Positions 20,162 through 44,656 of a DNA stretch of 64,000 nucleotides are shown one piece after another. The translations under genes and the position numbers were made by a program. A model generated the notes under the pieces. It was not told the DNA's origin. It did not search any database and saw only the letters and a list, made by a program, of their open reading frames with translations. Within the stretch, counting starts at the first letter, position 1. Each line of letters opens with the position of its first letter. Origin of the DNA: Gluconacetobacter diazotrophicus PA1 5 (GTDB lineage: Bacteria; Pseudomonadota; Alphaproteobacteria; Acetobacterales; Acetobacteraceae); NCBI RefSeq assembly GCF_000021325.1, contig NC_011365.1:1522501-1586500 (forward strand). The letters run 5' to 3'.

Positions 20162-22420
20162 AAATGAACGCACCTTTCATACCGATTTCGTTATGATCTG
20201 TCATCACAATTTTTTGATAATGGATCGGGAATCGATGCGCATCGTCCTCTTGCCCTGCCTCGCCGCGACCTCAATAAGTATGTTGGCGGTTTCCGCATCC
20301 TATGCTTGGGCGGACAATAGCCCGTCGCCCCCCAGGACGAACAAACAGGCCAAATCGCGGCCGTTACATGCGCAGGGGACGCGCAAAGCGGGCAGCGCCA
20401 TCACCAGCCAGGATGAAGCGGTGGCTGTCGTGGGAACACGTGAGACATCGCATGGGATGGAGCAGAGCGTTACCCGTGCGACGATGGACAAGTTCGTGGC
20501 GGGGACCAGTCCCCTGCAGATTCTGTCGGCCACGACACCGGGTGTCAATTTTGCCTCGGACGACCCGTTCGGCCTGGATACATGGGCGAACACATTTTAT
20601 ATTCGCGGCTATTCCCAAAGCCAGTTGGGCATCACCCTGGACGGTATCCCGCTGGGCGATGCCCAGTTCATCAATTCCAACGGCCTCGATATCAATCAGG
20701 CGATCATCCAGAACAATATCGGTCGCGTCGACATGTCGCAGGGTGGCGGTGCGCTCGATGTCATGTCCGTCACCAACCTGGGTGGCGCGCTGCAATATTA
20801 TTCACTCGATCCGCGCGACAAGGCTGGTGGAGACATTTCACAGACGTTCGGCAGCAACCAGACCTATCGCACGTACGTCAGCGCCCAGAGCGGCAAGCTC
20901 AATTCCAGCGGGACGAAGTTCTATGCGTCGTACGCGCGCACCGATGCCGGGAAATGGAAAGGCGCCGGGGACCAGTTCGAACAGCAGGCGAATTTCAAGA
21001 TCGTACAGCCGCTCGGGCGTTACGGAAAACTGTCCGGATTCTTCAATTATTCCGAATTCGACCAGTATAATTACAGCGATTTGAGCCTGGAAATCATCCA
21101 GAAGCTCGGCCGGAACGTGGATTATTTCTATCCGAACTACAAAGCCGCGTATCAGGCTGCCGAGGGGATCTATCCCGCAGGCTATGCCAAGGTCGGAGAT
21201 GCCATGGACGTCTCCTATTACGATGGTGGCCAGGACCAGCGGAATTATCTTTCCGGCATCACGTCCACGATCGATCTGACGTCCCGCCTGCATCTGAAGA
21301 CGGTGCTGTACGACCAGCAATCGGCGGGGGACTACGAATGGACCAACCCCTATGTGTCGTCGCCCTCGGGCGCGCCCATGATCCAGCAGGTCGGGCACAC
21401 ATCGATGACGCGCGTGGGCGGGATTGGCGCGGTGCAGTACCAGATCGCCAATCATTCGCTTGAAACCGGCGTCTGGTACGAAAACAACGGATATAGCTGG
21501 GCGCAACGGTACTACAACCAGCCGCTCCTGGGGGAGGGTACGCCCCGAAGCGCCACCGGACCGTACAACGATCCGTTCGCCACCGCATACGCCATGACCT
21601 TCAATACCAACAGTTTTCAATATTACCTGGAAGATTCCTACCGTATCTTGAAGACGCTGCGGGTGCACGCGGGCTTCAAATCCATGCTGACGACGACGTC
21701 GGGCGGCGCATCCTATAACAATCCCGTCTATACGGGCCAGGACACCCTGCCCAGTGGCAGCCTGACCACCGCCAGCGCCTTCCTGCCGCATGTCAGCATC
21801 AACTGGAATTTCCTGCCCCGGAACGAACTGTTTTTCGACTTCGCGGAGAACATGCGCGCATTCACCTATAATACATGGCAGAGCGGGAATGCATGGGGGG
21901 TCAATGAGATGCCCCAGAACCTGAAGCCCGAGACCACCTTCAATTACGAGGTCGGCTATCGATATAATTCCCGCTTCGTCACGGGCCTCGTCAATCTGTA
22001 TCATATCGATTACAGGAACCGGCTGGCCACCATCACCACCGGCAGCCTGGTGAACGCCCACAATACCTATATCAACGTGGGGAACATGGCGATCTGGGGT
22101 GCCGATGCCGGCGTGACGGTGCGCCCGCTGCCGGGCCTCGAGATCTTCAACAGCGCCAGCTACAACAAATCCACCTATGGGCAGGATGTATCCAGCGGCG
22201 GGGTAAATTATCCCATCAGCGGCAAGCAGGAGGCCGGCTATCCGCAATGGATGTACAAGGCCAACGTCTCGTACAGGTATGGCAACGCGAAGGTCAACTT
22301 CAACGTCAACTATATGGGAAAGCGATACATCTCGTACATGAACGACGCCGCCGTGAACGGGTATTGGCTGGCATCGCTGTCGGCGACGTATATCTTCAAA
22401 ACCATTCCCCATCTCTCTCA

Positions 22421-23336
22421 GAGCCTGAATCAGAAAGCGGTTTGATTGATTTTCCGTAGAACTCTGCGGATATGAGCGATCATCAGCCACGCGTGGGATG
22501 AGGAGATTGTTGCCTCGACATCCCTCGTGAGGCGGCGGCAGCGACCGAGCCATGCAAAGCTACGCTCCACGATCCAGCGTTTGGGCAGGACGACGAAGCC
22601 TTGGGCCCGATCGCTGCGTTTGACGATCTCGATCGTCCATCGGCCGAGTTCAGCCAGCGCACCACGCAACTTCTCTCCGGCATATCCCCCGTCGCCGATC
22701 AGATGGCGAAGCCAGGGGAACAATGAGCGTATCCTGGTCGCTACCAGCGGCGCGCCGTCACGATCCTGAACGTCGGCGGGATGCACGACAGCCGCCACGA
22801 CATGACCCAGCGTGTCGGTGGCGATATGCCGCTTGCGTCCCTTGATCTTCTTGCCCGCGTCATAGCCGCGCGGGCCGCTATTTTCTGCGGTTTTCACCGA
22901 CTGGCTGTCGATAATGCCCACCGAAGGCGTGGCGTCCCGTCCATCTTGTTCACGCGACAGGATCACGAGAATATGGTTCATGGCCTCCCACCGTCCCTCG
23001 CGTATCCACCGATAGAAATAGCCTTGCACGGTCGTGAAGGCAGGAAAGTGCCGGGGCAGTTGCCGCCATTGGCAGCCGGTCGTGACGATATAGAGGATCG
23101 CTTCCATGACGCGGCGCAAATCGGTGCGGCGCGGTCTCCCCAGACGTTTCCTCTCGGGCATCAACGGCGCAATCAGCGCCCATTCCGCATCGCGCAGGTC
23201 ACTTGCATACTCAAGGTCGTCCCGGCGATACTGCGCGCGGGTGATTTCAGTCCAGGCCATCTTGATCTCATCAGGTCGTCGCAAACCCATGAATCATAAC
23301 CCGCTGAAATCACTCAACTCATTTTAAGTCAGACAG
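22421..23336 (-). mobile_element. IS5-family insertion sequence (IS1031-like), 916 bp
   Basis: One transposase gene lies between imperfect terminal inverted repeats: the left end begins GAGCCTGAATCAG, and the right end read on the minus strand begins CTGTCTGACTTAA. The element is flanked by the direct repeat TCA (22418-22420 and 23337-23339), which fits the TNA target duplication of the IS1031/IS427 groups of IS5. Removing the element plus one TCA restores the receptor reading frame perfectly. This shows the insertion point directly and suggests a recent event. Which IS1031 relative it is cannot be decided without a database. Confidence 0.92.
22430..23260 (-). CDS. IS5-family transposase (DDE type)
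   Basis: A 276-residue transposase that moves the surrounding element. The DDE catalytic triad is visible as D118 (GIIDSQSVKT), D190 (LIGDGGYAG) and E232 (WIVERSFAWLGRCRRL). The last block is the family signature. The N-terminal helix-turn-helix region begins SDLRDAEWALIAPLMP, as in IS1031-like elements. The frame appears intact in one piece, without the frameshift used by some IS5 groups, so the element may be active. An in-frame ATG at 23290 would add 10 residues. The stop lies 10 bases inside the left end. Confidence 0.93.
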   Translation of the reverse strand: MAWTEITRAQYRRDDLEYASDLRDAEWALIAPLMPERKRLGRPRRTDLRRVMEAILYIVTTGCQWRQLPRHFPAFTTVQGYFYRWIREGRWEAMNHILVILSREQDGRDATPSVGIIDSQSVKTAENSGPRGYDAGKKIKGRKRHIATDTLGHVVAAVVHPADVQDRDGAPLVATRIRSLFPWLRHLIGDGGYAGEKLRGALAELGRWTIEIVKRSDRAQGFVVLPKRWIVERSFAWLGRCRRLTRDVEATISSSHAWLMIAHIRRVLRKINQTAF

Positions 23337-34123: not shown

Positions 34124-37100
34124 CTACCCCATCAGGGACCTGATCCCGGGCAGGATCGCCACCAGCAGCCCGGCGGGCGGCGGTTTCACGCCGTGGGTCC
34201 GCACCACGCCGGCAAACGACTCGACCACCGCCTGGTCGGCTGCGATCCGTGCCACGGCATCGCGCCGCTGCGCGTCGTCCAGGGGGCCGGACAGGGCGGC
34301 CAGCCCGATGCGGGCCAGGGCCGCGATGTCCCGCGCCACCGGCAGGCCCTGTTCCAGCGCGCCCACGCCCTGCGCGACCGTGGCGAAGCGATCCCCGCAC
34401 GCGGCCCACGCGCCGAGTTGCGCCCGCAACGCCTCCGCCACGCCGCGATCCCCGGCGGCGAAGCGCGCGGCCAGCGCGTTGAACCGCATCGCGGCGATGG
34501 GGTCGGGGGATGCGATTTCCGCCAGTTCGTCGAACCGCACCTGGCCGCTGCGCCGGACGAAGCTGTTCAGGGCGTAATTGCGCACCGGCATCACGGCACC
34601 CATCAGGCAGGCGACCGCCCCGGGATCGGCGGGCGCCATGCGGGCCTGCATCCGATAGGCGTTCGCCCGCGCCTGCAGGCCGGTCACCTCCAGGCGGTTC
34701 GCCACCTCCGCCAGGCGACGGTCCATGTCATCGACATCGCGGGTCTGCGGCTGCGACCAGAACCGCTCGGCTATGGCGGCGGCGCGCGGCCACAGGCGCG
34801 CATCCAGCGTTTCGTCCGTGACCAGTTCGCTCCACAGCGGGGCCTCGCCGCCCAGCACCAGCTTCTTCTGCGCGGCGTCCAGCGGCGGCAGGGCGGGGTC
34901 GAGCGTGAAGGCGTCCACCAGGGGGCCCATCGTCACGCGCTTGATATCGGCCTGCGCGCGGGTCAGGCCGCTGGCCTGCACGTCCAGCGGATCGACCCGG
35001 TAATGCTGCTCCGCCGGGTTCAGCAGGTCGAGATAATAGCCGGCCGAGACCACGACCGGGTGGCCCGCCCGGGTGGCGGTGCCGATGAATTTGGACGACC
35101 GCCAGGCCTCGACCACCACGCTTTTGGGAATCGGGGCCGCGCTGACCTCGTCCCAGCCCACCATGATCTTGCCCTGGCGGGCCAGCACGGATTGCACCCG
35201 CGCGGTAAAGGCCGCCTGCAGCGACGCGGTGTCCGCGAAGCCGTGGGCCTTCATGAACGCCGTAATCTTCGGATTGCGGGTCCATTGTTCGGCCTGCACC
35301 TCATCGCCGCCGGCATGGAAATAGCGATCCGGGAACAGGCGCCCCATTTCGCCGTATAGCTGCGTGACGAAGTGCAGCGTGGCATCCAGCGTCGGGTTCA
35401 GCGCCGCGTCGTCGGGGTCCGCCATGGCCGGATCGACCGGCTGGGCCGCCAGCGCGGGATAGGCCAGCAGGATGGCCAGCGCGTGGCCGGGCGTGTCGAA
35501 TTCCGGCATGATGCGCACGCCGCGATCGGCGGCGTAGGCGACCAGGTCGCGGATCTGGGCCTGGGTATAGAACTGGCCATGCGACCCCTGCCGCTGCAGG
35601 CCTGGGAACAGCCGGCTTTCGACCCGAAATCCCTGGGAATCGCCCAGATGCAGGTGCAGCACGTTCAGCTTCACCTGTTCCATCGCGTCGATCTGCCGAT
35701 GCAGGGTCTCGATGCGCATGAAGTGGCGCGAGACGTCGATCATGATGCCGCGCCAGGGAAAGCGCGGCCGGTCGTCGATATCGGCCTGCATCAGCACCGG
35801 GCCCTGCGGCCCCTGCGCCGCCAGTTGCGCCAGGGTGGCGAACCCGTCCAGCACCCCGGCGGGACCGGCGGCGTCCAGCGTGATGCCGTCCGGACGGACG
35901 GCCAGGTGGTACTGCTCCTTCTCGCCCAGGGCGAGGAAGGACGGATCGGCCCCGTAGCGGACCCGCAGCATCGCGGCCCCCGCCGCGTGGTCGTCGGCCG
36001 GCAGCACCCGGCCGGCCAGCCGGTCCAGGCGTGCCCTCAGCCGATCGGCCGCGCGGCGCAGCAGGGGTGTCGGCGCATGGTCCCACTGCACGGCCAGGCC
36101 GTTGGCCAGGGACAGGGTCTGGCCGGAATAATGCGCCGAGGCGGGCAGCGGCATCAGCGCCGGGGCCGCCGCCCGCGCCTGCCCCGCCGGCAGCGCCACG
36201 GCCAGCACCGCGCCCAGCGCCGCGGCCGCCACGCCGCCCGCCATGCCGCCACCGGCCCCCGGACCGGCAATCGCCGTCCGCCGCCGCATCAGGCCGACAT
36301 AGGCCAGGATCACCAGATAGGACGGGGCCGCGACCAGCACGAAGGCGGCGTGCGCCCCGCGGGTCTGCGCCAGATGCACGAAGACCTGCGGCAGCACCGC
36401 CCCGCCCGAGAACGCCATCACCAGAAGCGCCGCCGCGCGGTCGGCATGCCGGTCCATCATGCGCATGACCACCGGAAACAGCGCCGGCATGATCATGGCG
36501 TTGGCAAAGCCGAGCAGCGCCACGCACAGGACCGAGACCAGCCCGCTGCTGACCCACGCCGCCCCGCACAGCACCAGCCCCAGCCCGCAGGACAGACCCA
36601 TGTACTGCAGTTGCGAGACCAGGCGCGGCACCACGGCCATGCCCGCCAGGTAGCCCGCCATCATCGCCGCCAGGGTCAGGGCGGTGAAATATTTGGTGAC
36701 GTCCAGCGACAGGCCGAATCCGCGCCCGTACATCCCGATCGCGTCGCCGGCCATGACCTCTACCCCGACATAGAGGAACGTGCTGAACACGCCCAGGCAC
36801 AGCAGGGGAACGCCGCCCCGCGCCGGCCCCTCCGCATGGCCGGCCGCGTCGGCCGTGTCCTCCCGGCCGATGGCGATGGATGGCAGGCGCGCGCGCAGGA
36901 TCCATACCGCCAACCCCAGCAGCAGCACCGCCATGGCCAGATAGGGCGCATGCACCGCATGGGTGAAACGGGCGAGGACGGCGTCACGCGCCGCCGCCGA
37001 CGGCGCGGCGCGGACCTGCGCCGCGATGCCGCCGATATCGCGCATGACCAGCCCGGCGAACACCAGCGGGGCGACGATGCCCGCGCACTTGTTCGCCGTG

Positions 37101-37546
37101 CCCATGATGGCGATGCGCTGCGCCGCGCGGGCATGCGGGCCCAGCAGGCTGACATAGGGGTTGATCGTCACCTGCAGCAGCGACAGGCCGGCGCCGATGA
37201 CCCCCAGCCCGGCCAGCGCGCCGGGATACCAGCGCGCGGTCACGCATTCGCCGAACAGCGCCGTCCCGCCCGCCATCACCATCAGCGAGACCGCCATGCC
37301 GGCTTTCAGCCCGGTGCGGCGCGCCAGCAGGGTGGCGGGAATGGGAAACACGAAATAGGCCAGGTAGAAACAGGCCGGAACCAGGAACGCCGCGACATCG
37401 CTGAGGTTGAAGGCAAGCTGCACGAAGGTGATCAGCGGCCCATTGAGCCAGGTGACGAAGCCGATGCTGAAGAACAGGATCGCCATGATGACGATCGGGC
37501 GCCAGCCATGGGCGCCGGCCGGACTGGTCACGGACGGGGTCGTCAA
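34124..37546 (-). CDS. Fusion of MFS sugar permease and GH20 beta-N-acetylhexosaminidase
   Basis: One uninterrupted 1140-residue frame. Residues 1-420 are a FucP/GluP/NagP-type MFS permease (FFSIGFVTWLNGPLI, NPYVSLLGP, about 12 segments). Residues 437-458 form an extra hydrophobic segment ending in QARAAA, like a kept signal peptide. Residues 465-1140 are a GH20 hexosaminidase: an N-terminal accessory domain (about 465-590), then a TIM barrel with RGIMIDVSRHFM, LHLHLGDSQGFR and the catalytic pair D748-E749 in HAGGDEV. With 12 segments the permease ends in the cytoplasm, so segment 13 would place the enzyme in the periplasm. Predicted role: release GlcNAc from chito-oligosaccharide or glycan ends and import it. 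The start is TTG with AAGGA 8 bases upstream. Confidence 0.93.
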   Translation of the reverse strand: MTTPSVTSPAGAHGWRPIVIMAILFFSIGFVTWLNGPLITFVQLAFNLSDVAAFLVPACFYLAYFVFPIPATLLARRTGLKAGMAVSLMVMAGGTALFGECVTARWYPGALAGLGVIGAGLSLLQVTINPYVSLLGPHARAAQRIAIMGTANKCAGIVAPLVFAGLVMRDIGGIAAQVRAAPSAAARDAVLARFTHAVHAPYLAMAVLLLGLAVWILRARLPSIAIGREDTADAAGHAEGPARGGVPLLCLGVFSTFLYVGVEVMAGDAIGMYGRGFGLSLDVTKYFTALTLAAMMAGYLAGMAVVPRLVSQLQYMGLSCGLGLVLCGAAWVSSGLVSVLCVALLGFANAMIMPALFPVVMRMMDRHADRAAALLVMAFSGGAVLPQVFVHLAQTRGAHAAFVLVAAPSYLVILAYVGLMRRRTAIAGPGAGGGMAGGVAAAALGAVLAVALPAGQARAAAPALMPLPASAHYSGQTLSLANGLAVQWDHAPTPLLRRAADRLRARLDRLAGRVLPADDHAAGAAMLRVRYGADPSFLALGEKEQYHLAVRPDGITLDAAGPAGVLDGFATLAQLAAQGPQGPVLMQADIDDRPRFPWRGIMIDVSRHFMRIETLHRQIDAMEQVKLNVLHLHLGDSQGFRVESRLFPGLQRQGSHGQFYTQAQIRDLVAYAADRGVRIMPEFDTPGHALAILLAYPALAAQPVDPAMADPDDAALNPTLDATLHFVTQLYGEMGRLFPDRYFHAGGDEVQAEQWTRNPKITAFMKAHGFADTASLQAAFTARVQSVLARQGKIMVGWDEVSAAPIPKSVVVEAWRSSKFIGTATRAGHPVVVSAGYYLDLLNPAEQHYRVDPLDVQASGLTRAQADIKRVTMGPLVDAFTLDPALPPLDAAQKKLVLGGEAPLWSELVTDETLDARLWPRAAAIAERFWSQPQTRDVDDMDRRLAEVANRLEVTGLQARANAYRMQARMAPADPGAVACLMGAVMPVRNYALNSFVRRSGQVRFDELAEIASPDPIAAMRFNALAARFAAGDRGVAEALRAQLGAWAACGDRFATVAQGVGALEQGLPVARDIAALARIGLAALSGPLDDAQRRDAVARIAADQAVVESFAGVVRTHGVKPPPAGLLVAILPGIRSLMG

Positions 37547-37682
37547 GAGGCTGTTCCTTCCGGCGGCGAAAGATGGGACGTCACGATGACGATAGCACGC
37601 CCCGCCGAATGGCCCAGATGCCTTCCGCCATCAGCACCGGTGTAGGTCCGGAAACGCGCGCCGGATCGCCACCAGCGCGCGT

Positions 37683-42604: not shown

Positions 42605-42618
42605 GAATGGGGGAGATC

Positions 42619-43839
42619 ATGATCCCGTCCGTCTATCTTCTGGGAACGGCGGATACCAAGTTCGCGGAACTGGACTATCTGCGATCGGTCCTGACCGGAC
42701 GGGGCGTCGGCAGCCATATCGTGGATGTCGGCACCCGCGAGGACCCGTGCGCCGCCGACATCACCGCGCGACAGGTGGCGGCCTGCCACCCCGATGGCGC
42801 TGCCGCGGTCTTCTGCGGCGAGCGCGGGCGCGCCATCGCGGCGATGTCCGAGGCGCTGCGGCGTTTCCTGCCGGGCCGCGCCGACCTGGCCGGCGTGATC
42901 GCGATCGGCGGCTCCGGCGGCACGGCCCTTGTCGCGCCGGCCCTGCAGGACCTGCCGATCGGCCTGCCCAAGATCCTGGTTTCCACCGTCGCATCGGGAA
43001 ACGTGGCGCCCTATGTGGGCGAATCCGATCTGTCCATGGTCTATTCGGTCGTCGACCTTCAGGGGCTGAACCGTATTTCGCGCACCATCCTGGCCAACGC
43101 CGCCAACGCCATGGCGGGCATGGTGCTGCACCCCGCGCCGCATGATGCCGGCACGCGTCCGGCGGTGGGCATCACCATGTTCGGCGTCACCACACCCTGC
43201 GTTACGGAGGCGATGCATATCCTGACAGGGGATTTCGAATGTCTTGTCTTCCACGCCACCGGAACCGGCGGGCGGTCGATGGAACGGCTTGTGCGCCAGG
43301 GCATGATCGGCGGCGTGCTCGACATCACCACCACCGAGTTCTGCGATTTCGTCGCGGGCGGCATCTTCCCCTGCGAGGCCGGGCGCCTGGATGCCGTCGC
43401 CGCGACCGGTGTGCCCTATGTCGGAAGCTGCGGCGGGCTGGACATGGTCAATTTCGGCGCCCGGGATACGGTGCCGGACCGGTATCGCGACCGGGTTTTC
43501 GTGCAGCATAATCCGTTCATCACGCTGATGCGCACGACGGCCGAGGAATGCGGGCAGATGGGACGCCTGATCGGCGCGCGCCTCAACCGCTGCCACGGGC
43601 CCGTGCGCTTCTATTATCCGGAAAAGGGCTTTTCCCAGCTCGATCGTCCTGGTCAGCCCTTTCACGATCCGGCGGCGGACGCGGCCTTCCGCGACGCGCT
43701 GGCGTCCACGCTGGAACAGACCGATCGGCGGCGTTTCATCAGCCTGCCGCTTGCCCTGAACGACCCGGCCTTCGCCCAGGCCATGGTCACGGAATTCCGC
43801 ACCCTTTTCGAGGAGAGTCATCCCTATGCCCCGCATTGA
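42619..43839 (+). CDS. Tm-1-like ATP-binding protein (UPF0261)
   Basis: A 406-residue protein matching the N-terminal domain of tomato Tm-1 and the bacterial UPF0261 family: [19 protein letters not shown] at the start, [12 protein letters not shown] near residue 95, [14 protein letters not shown] around 210 and [15 protein letters not shown] near 275. The plant protein binds ATP; the bacterial enzymes have no settled activity. In plants and fungi this domain is fused to the PEP-hydrolase-type TIM barrel that is encoded here by the very next gene, overlapping by 14 bases. So the two probably act as a complex. An ATG at 42607 is an alternative start; the GGGGGAG between favours 42619. Confidence 0.9.
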
Positions 43840-44656
43840 ACGCAGCACCATCCTTGCCCGCCTGCACAGGATGATCGACGACCGCAAGCCGATCATCGGC
43901 GGCGGCGCGGGGACCGGCCTGTCCGCCAAGTGCGAGGCGGCCGGCGGCATCGACCTGATCGTCATCTACAATTCCGGCCGTTACCGCATGGCCGGGCGCG
44001 GATCGCTGGCCGGCGTCCTGGCCTATGGCAACGCCAACCAGATCGTCATGGACATGGCACGCGAGGTCCTGCCCGTCGTCCCGAACACGCCGGTCCTGGC
44101 CGGGGTAAACGGCACCGATCCGTTCGTGGATTTCGACGTGTTCCTGGACGACATAAGCCGCGTCGGGTTTTCGGGTATCCAGAATTTTCCCACGGTCGGC
44201 CTGATCGACGGAAACTTCCGCAAGAACCTGGAAGAAACCGGCATGAGCTACAGCCTGGAGGTCGATGTCGTCGCCCGCGCGCGCAGGAAGGACATGCTGA
44301 CGACGCCCTATGTCTTCGACGTGGCGCAGGCGAAGGACATGGCCGGGGCCGGGGCCGATATCCTGGTCGCCCATATGGGGCTGACGACGGGCGGCAGCAT
44401 CGGGGCCGAGACGGCCTTCACGCTCGAGGATTCCATAAAGCTGATCAACGAGATCACGGACGCCGCGAAAACCGTGCGCGACGACGTGATCGTGCTGTGT
44501 CATGGCGGCCCGATCGCGATGCCGGCCGATGCGCAGAAGGTGCTGGACGCCTGCCCGGACTGCCACGGCTTCTACGGTGCATCCAGCATGGAACGCCTGC
44601 CCGCCGAAACGGCACTGGTCGAACAGACCCGGACATTCAAGGCCATGACGCGCTAG
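43826..44656 (+). CDS. PEP-hydrolase-family TIM-barrel enzyme (Tm-1 C-terminal partner)
   Basis: A 276-residue TIM barrel of the phosphoenolpyruvate hydrolase-like family. Hallmarks: [19 protein letters not shown] near residue 22, [20 protein letters not shown] at 45-65, [20 protein letters not shown] around 115-128 and an end region with [10 protein letters not shown]. It matches the C-terminal half of plant Tm-1. GAGGAG precedes the start, which lies inside the Tm-1-like gene's 3' end. The presence of both halves in one operon, as separate polypeptides, indicates a conserved two-part enzyme of unknown reaction. Confidence 0.9.

Follow-up and report, generated by a model that had tools for sequence, protein, structure and literature searches.

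A candidate permease-hexosaminidase fusion with a signal-peptide-like joint in Gluconacetobacter diazotrophicus PAl 5

Does G. diazotrophicus PAl 5 encode a sugar permease and an exported hexosaminidase as one polypeptide and, if so, do the two stay joined? We investigated this in a window of 64,000 nucleotides (NC_011365.1, positions 1,522,501 to 1,586,500), the whole stretch of DNA analysed, which is the JGI sequence of this strain. An earlier note made from the letters of the window had described a single 1140-codon frame linking an MFS permease to a GH20 enzyme, and had proposed that the hydrolase is held on its own transporter. The stop-free frame is present in the JGI assembly, once in the window's own genome by genome search, but is absent from the second sequence of the strain, that of RioGene. 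Its features, in positions of the window, are as follows.

34124..37546, minus strand: fused ORF, 1140 aa, TTG start (ORF calling, genome search)
37555..37561, minus strand: GGAAGGA, ribosome-binding-like, upstream of the TTG (read from the sequence)
36290..37546, minus strand: MFS permease half, GluP/FucP-like, residues 1-419 (Pfam, NCBIfam-type profiles, 77-83% genus orthologues)
36245..36289, minus strand: permease tail and linker, residues 420-434, MRRRTAIAGPGAGGG, probably cytoplasmic
36170..36244, minus strand: thirteenth hydrophobic segment, signal-peptide-like, residues 435-459, ending ARA
36157..36179, minus strand: stretch where JGI and RioGene disagree, net -4 in RioGene (alignment)
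35807..36163, minus strand: GH20b domain, residues 462-580 (Pfam)
34751..35761, minus strand: GH20 catalytic domain, residues 596-932 (Pfam)
35300..35305, minus strand: catalytic D748-E749 (D and E in 44/44 homologues)
34127..34750, minus strand: C-terminal region, residues 933-1140, aligned with 6yhh up to 1075

The proposed order of permease then enzyme was recovered by Pfam, which placed MFS_1 at residues 22-385, GH20b at 462-580 and the GH20 catalytic domain at 596-932, the last with 305.4 bits against a cut-off of 22.3. The DE pair was found where it had been reported, at D748-E749. We compared twelve GH20 positions, taken as lying in or near the active site, between the fused protein and 44 homologues. 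Residue counts came from a GH20-only alignment, the full alignment having put GH20 rows onto the permease part. Eleven of the twelve positions were identical in 44/44 homologues (R607, D684, H688, D748, E749, W798, W815, Y838, D840, W905 and E907); the odd one was S637, which is G in all 44. By its domain score and catalytic residues, the enzyme half is a predicted GH20 beta-N-acetylhexosaminidase. The permease half passed the profile of the GluP glucose/galactose MFS subfamily (TIGR01272; 219 bits, cut-off 202.55). It missed the equivalog cut-offs of the FucP fucose symporter (TIGR00885; 120.5 vs 280.4 bits) and of the NagP GlcNAc transporter (NF046060; 247.4 vs 625 bits), the latter being missed also by the permeases of loci L098 and L034. 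Third-position G+C stayed at 0.88-0.95 in windows over the permease/enzyme junction.

The two halves are linked by an additional hydrophobic segment. The earlier note was right that it exists but had placed it slightly off, at residues 437-458; we found a 19-residue stretch at 434-452 (Kyte-Doolittle peak 2.04), followed by QARAAA at 456-461. Inspected by eye, the segment keeps a short hydrophobic core, P453/G455 and an A-R-A site beside the conserved mature start APALMP, so that an AxA site follows the core directly next to the mature domain (ARA/AAPALMP, the slash marking the site). Separately encoded relatives carry, by eye, a signal peptide or a lipobox before the mature start, and among them the same signal end recurs (VARA/APALMP, MAQA/APALMP). 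Orthologues of the permease end 10-13 residues past GLM in five of seven loci, and later in L101 and L103; in the window the permease tail RRRTAIAGPGAGGG runs into a segment built like the signal peptides of the free enzymes. This resemblance, judged by eye, agrees with the suggestion that the thirteenth segment is the enzyme's old signal peptide. The usual MFS topology has 12 segments. Together with the positive charges of the tail and linker, this places residues 420-434 probably in the cytoplasm; with RRR on that side, the periplasm would be the enzyme's location, as had been proposed.

We searched for the same arrangement elsewhere, scoring a fusion where one match spanned both halves with no stops inside; open-frame size alone was unreliable. 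The samples overlap, and matches were taken at a threshold of 1e-20 within the genus and at 1e-40 to 1e-70 beyond it. Matches occurred in 14/14 genus genomes, and a spanning stop-free match was found in the window's own genome only (1/14). In the family sample 79 of 397 genomes matched, with the fusion in the window's genome alone among the matches listed; that genome was likewise the only fused one in the phylum (56 of 398 matching) and class (5 of 385) samples, and none of the 78 matching genomes among 395 Bacteroidota was fused. Outside the genus no more than two candidates were scored for each genome, a depth at which distant fusions could be missed. The rarity claimed for the fusion was therefore borne out, as it was found in no other genome of the samples searched. 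No title or abstract opening among the literature found on the subject names an MFS-GH20 fusion. The earlier note had also held that homologues always encoded as two genes would speak against a fused protein; the sampled relatives do encode two genes, and the objection holds in part.

Three genomes of genus g60 came closest, each spanning both halves with one stop, among the family matches listed. In G184 (locus L096, 3300-6740) permease and GH20 adjoin in frame with a single TAA between them, and in G357 and G369 one stop lies inside the match. Other long frames were examined and rejected. In G030 (open frame 1463), locus L095 has TGA, TAA, TAG and TAG between permease, NagB and GH20; the 877-878 frames by the permease in G696, G489 and G784 (L132-L134) consist of a permease ORF followed by a separate ORF that is LacI-like by eye; and the 1213-codon stop-free frame of G123 holds GH20 only, with the permease on the other strand.

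The two halves have different trees. A permease-half orthologue (77-83%) occurs in 7 of the 12 other-species genomes of the genus, and in six of the seven loci its surroundings are those of the window, with LysR, LysE, AspT and SugP nearby; AspT is about 6.5 kb away in the remaining locus, L115. An opposite-strand aspartyl protease separates MFS and AspT in four of the five loci read (Pfam on one), with none in L115. None of the seven loci gave a GH20 match. In the permease tree (29 of 40 rows after removal of identical rows) the window grouped with the genus orthologues, with support of 94 and 86, under the tree tool's star. These data indicate that the permease half is, as judged from sequence, a vertically inherited genus gene in its usual place. 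Seven genus genomes (G042, G174, G247, G250, G251, G252 and G253) have elsewhere a nagB-type gene just before GH20, five of them with a permease of 67-69% ahead of the nagB-type gene, and in G123, G249 and G254 GH20 lies back to back with another permease (60-61%). A quick GH20 tree (61 of 112 long-enough rows, identical rows and loci L061-L093 removed) placed the window on a long stem (0.47), next to a clade of 18 rows made up of copies from Acetobacter, Gluconacetobacter and Gluconobacter (97 for the 20-row set, starred). We rejected the possibility that the window's GH20 is the genus's own nag-operon copy: placing it in a clade with the seven copies from the genus costs 87.7 log units (p-AU 1.7e-6), in a test whose seven-copy group was named after the tree had been seen and for which the long stem leaves fast change possible. 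Thus the fusion appears to be a species-level event in which a resident permease was joined to a GH20 whose ancestry is either different or fast-changed.

Strain PAl 5 has been sequenced twice, by JGI and by RioGene, both from ATCC 49037 (PMC3035290). In the RioGene sequence of the species (genome G215) the frame is split, with the permease (1-464) and the enzyme (431-1139) in different frames; alignment with JGI showed net -4 bases at window positions 36157-36167 and one substitution at 36179. A sequencing frameshift had been named in the earlier note as grounds for doubting the single polypeptide, and this concern is partly justified, as one of the two assemblies does carry a frameshift at the joint. 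The conflict at the joint is confined to residues 456-464. Positions 36180-37075, 896 bases running from inside the permease to the signal segment, are identical in both independent sequencings, the next difference being at 37076; two independent projects therefore agree that the permease runs stop-free into the signal-like segment. The RioGene permease chain ends in AGHARAAPA, where a TGA overlaps an ATG, and upstream the enzyme frame is, by eye, Arg/Gly-rich without an export signal. At the contested joint the JGI residues recur in the homologues (P462 in 23/44, A463 in 20/44 and L464 in 34/44, with gaps in 17, 16 and 4 of the 44 rows, which hold the matched stretch alone), whereas the RioGene letters occur in 0, 0 and 0.

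We extended this comparison to all differing GH20 residues. The list held 24 differences, of which residue 456, an effect of the chosen RioGene chain start, was dropped; for the 44 homologues, loci L046-L093 were excluded and X for stops in the homologue stretches was deleted before alignment. Of the 23 comparable residues, 16 favoured JGI, six RioGene and one was tied. A RioGene -1/+1 pair nearby also replaces DARLW (D in 43/44; R917 and W919 in 44/44). Against JGI, V680 (44/44 vs JGI M) and L970 (42/44 vs 1) match RioGene; at these two positions, as at S637, it is the JGI copy that deviates from a conserved residue. JGI M680 (window 35507-35509) and M970 (34637-34639) are unusual alleles or base errors. 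Over about 60.7 kb of comparable window, 219 positions are substituted between the two sequences (145 by transitions) and the alignment has 32 gap columns, the differences lying in clusters; in the GH20 half (34124-36150), 8 of 21 substitutions are synonymous and 13 are not, a count close to the 6.6 synonymous ones that chance would give. The differences between JGI and RioGene may be part real divergence and part error.

If base-call errors in JGI had joined two neighbouring genes, the cell would make two proteins. This reading draws on the four net bases absent from RioGene and the TGA overlapping an ATG there, and on the relatives, which in the samples encode two genes, as in the in-frame pair of G184 and the single-stop matches of G357 and G369. 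However, the RioGene version costs the enzyme its export signal and the conserved P-A-L, and its -1/+1 pair replaces R917 and W919. JGI also fits the optical map far better than RioGene, a result that concerns large-scale order rather than single bases (PMC3035290). We consider such an artefact improbable, and the fusion itself very probably real, because at the contested spot the JGI letters are the ones that homologues support. Nevertheless, as the second strain sequence splits the frame, the fusion has to be confirmed before function is discussed. No resequencing of the strain was found in the accessible portion of PMC10783055.

We propose the following account, in which topology, cleavage and substrate are all conditional. 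The 3' end of the permease gene would have become continuous, in frame, with the end of a GH20 hexosaminidase gene that encodes the signal peptide, and translation would give a single chain that begins with a permease of 12 segments whose tail is cytoplasmic. The old signal peptide would then serve as a thirteenth segment, running in-to-out and carrying the enzyme into the periplasm, where signal peptidase would cut after ARA (459/460) and free a periplasmic hexosaminidase, so that two proteins would come from one gene in equal amounts. Taken as a whole, from joining through one precursor to permease and free enzyme, we regard this account as evenly balanced between right and wrong. Given a real fusion, cutting by signal peptidase is somewhat favoured by the short core, P453 and the A-R-A site. 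These marks of a cleavable signal, seen by eye, speak against the earlier proposal that the segment stays uncut and anchors the hydrolase beside its own transporter, coupling cleavage and uptake. Such anchoring, which we rank second, is doubtful but deserves consideration: a 19-residue hydrophobic stretch that follows RRR is capable of serving as a signal anchor, and anchoring is not foreign to the enzyme, as five distinct separately encoded genus GH20 sequences carry, by eye, a lipobox-like LSAC. On the other hand, P453/G455 and the A-R-A beside the mature start point to cleavage, and the permease half is not orthologous to the permease found with nagB and GH20 in relatives. A proton-coupled permease that, in one species, carries an exo-hexosaminidase on its thirteenth segment and passes the freed sugar to the adjoining pore seems rather unlikely to us. 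Starts at ATG420 or ATG435 could also yield a free pre-hexosaminidase, alongside any of these arrangements. ATG420 opens MRRRTAIAG...ARA/AAP, a complete-looking signal peptide, but no clear ribosome-binding stretch was seen by eye upstream of either ATG, and we rate internal initiation as highly improbable.

The G. diazotrophicus genome has one GH20, a nagA match barely over the cut-off (228.4 vs 225.65 bits), and a single Glucosamine_iso match of 228 bits, of a class common to all 14 genus genomes that we infer to be 6-phosphogluconolactonase. In profile comparison of the 14 genus genomes, a second, nagB-like Glucosamine_iso match was absent from the window's genome; it scored 64-78 bits in 11 of the 12 other-species genomes, with a 27-bit fragment in G255; a single Acetobacter example (286 bits against a cut-off of 236.9) underlies its assignment as nagB. 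A NagB-II query against the window's genome returned one 34% match, probably GlmS, and NagB-II was not found. With neither nagB type found, a role for GlcNAc as food is unproven. Imported GlcNAc is probably not a carbon source, and could feed the cell envelope through GlcN-6-P. GlcNAc uptake as the purpose of the fusion is therefore doubtful, given also the missed NagP cut-off and the location of the permease orthologues outside the nag operon.

Several known systems resemble parts of this arrangement. The MFS-NagB-(CutC)-GH20 groups of Acetobacter and Gluconacetobacter have both families on one strand and a GH20 with its own export signal; unlike the window, they comprise separate genes with stops, with nagB between and another permease paralogue (about 64-67% to the window's). 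The adjacent MFS and GH20 genes of genus g60 (G184, G357, G369) likewise run permease then GH20 in one frame, but they are unfused, with one stop, and both halves are far from the window's in the trees (where L003 represents G184). Among characterized proteins, Bradyrhizobium fbcH encodes a cytochrome b/c1 precursor in which an internal signal peptide joins a membrane and a periplasmic protein, and its cleavage is experimentally known. The window's chain shares this combination, although the proteins are unrelated and its cleavage is predicted. The GH20 structures 6yhh and human HEXB 3lmy aligned with the homologous GH20 region over 538-1075 and 461-959, neither match reaching the permease half, and the FucP structures 3o7q/3o7p, permease alone, aligned with residues 17-418.

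If real, this is a natural fusion, seen in a single species, that uses the signal peptide of the enzyme as its joint, and it tests which fate, cutting or anchoring, meets an internal signal peptide that follows a 12-segment permease. The disagreement between two published annotations of the strain over the hexosaminidase would then be explained as well. Table 5 of Giongo 2010 gives beta-hexosaminidase as a role in RioGene that is absent from JGI (PMC3035290), an entry that would fit a JGI annotation naming the fused gene for its permease end alone; the portion available of Bertalan 2009 (PMC2765452) contains no occurrence of hexosaminidase. If not real, the case warns that a multidomain protein can look convincing and yet stem from a base-calling slip in GC-rich DNA.

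Some features elsewhere in the window were also recorded. Comparison of positions 1-63000 with G215 (L128-L131) showed clusters of differences at kb 43-48 (43 substitutions, 0 gaps) and at kb 52-53 (56 substitutions, 16 gap columns); such clusters look more like divergence tracts than random errors. Positions 21023-23336 (about 2.3 kb) had no match above 1 kb in the corresponding RioGene stretch, for which a mobile element or rearrangement is possible. Positions 42607-44656 hold two adjoining genes, one encoding a 276-aa protein without an NCBIfam match and the other exceeding the cut-off of NF002673 ('hypothetical protein') with 650.8 bits.
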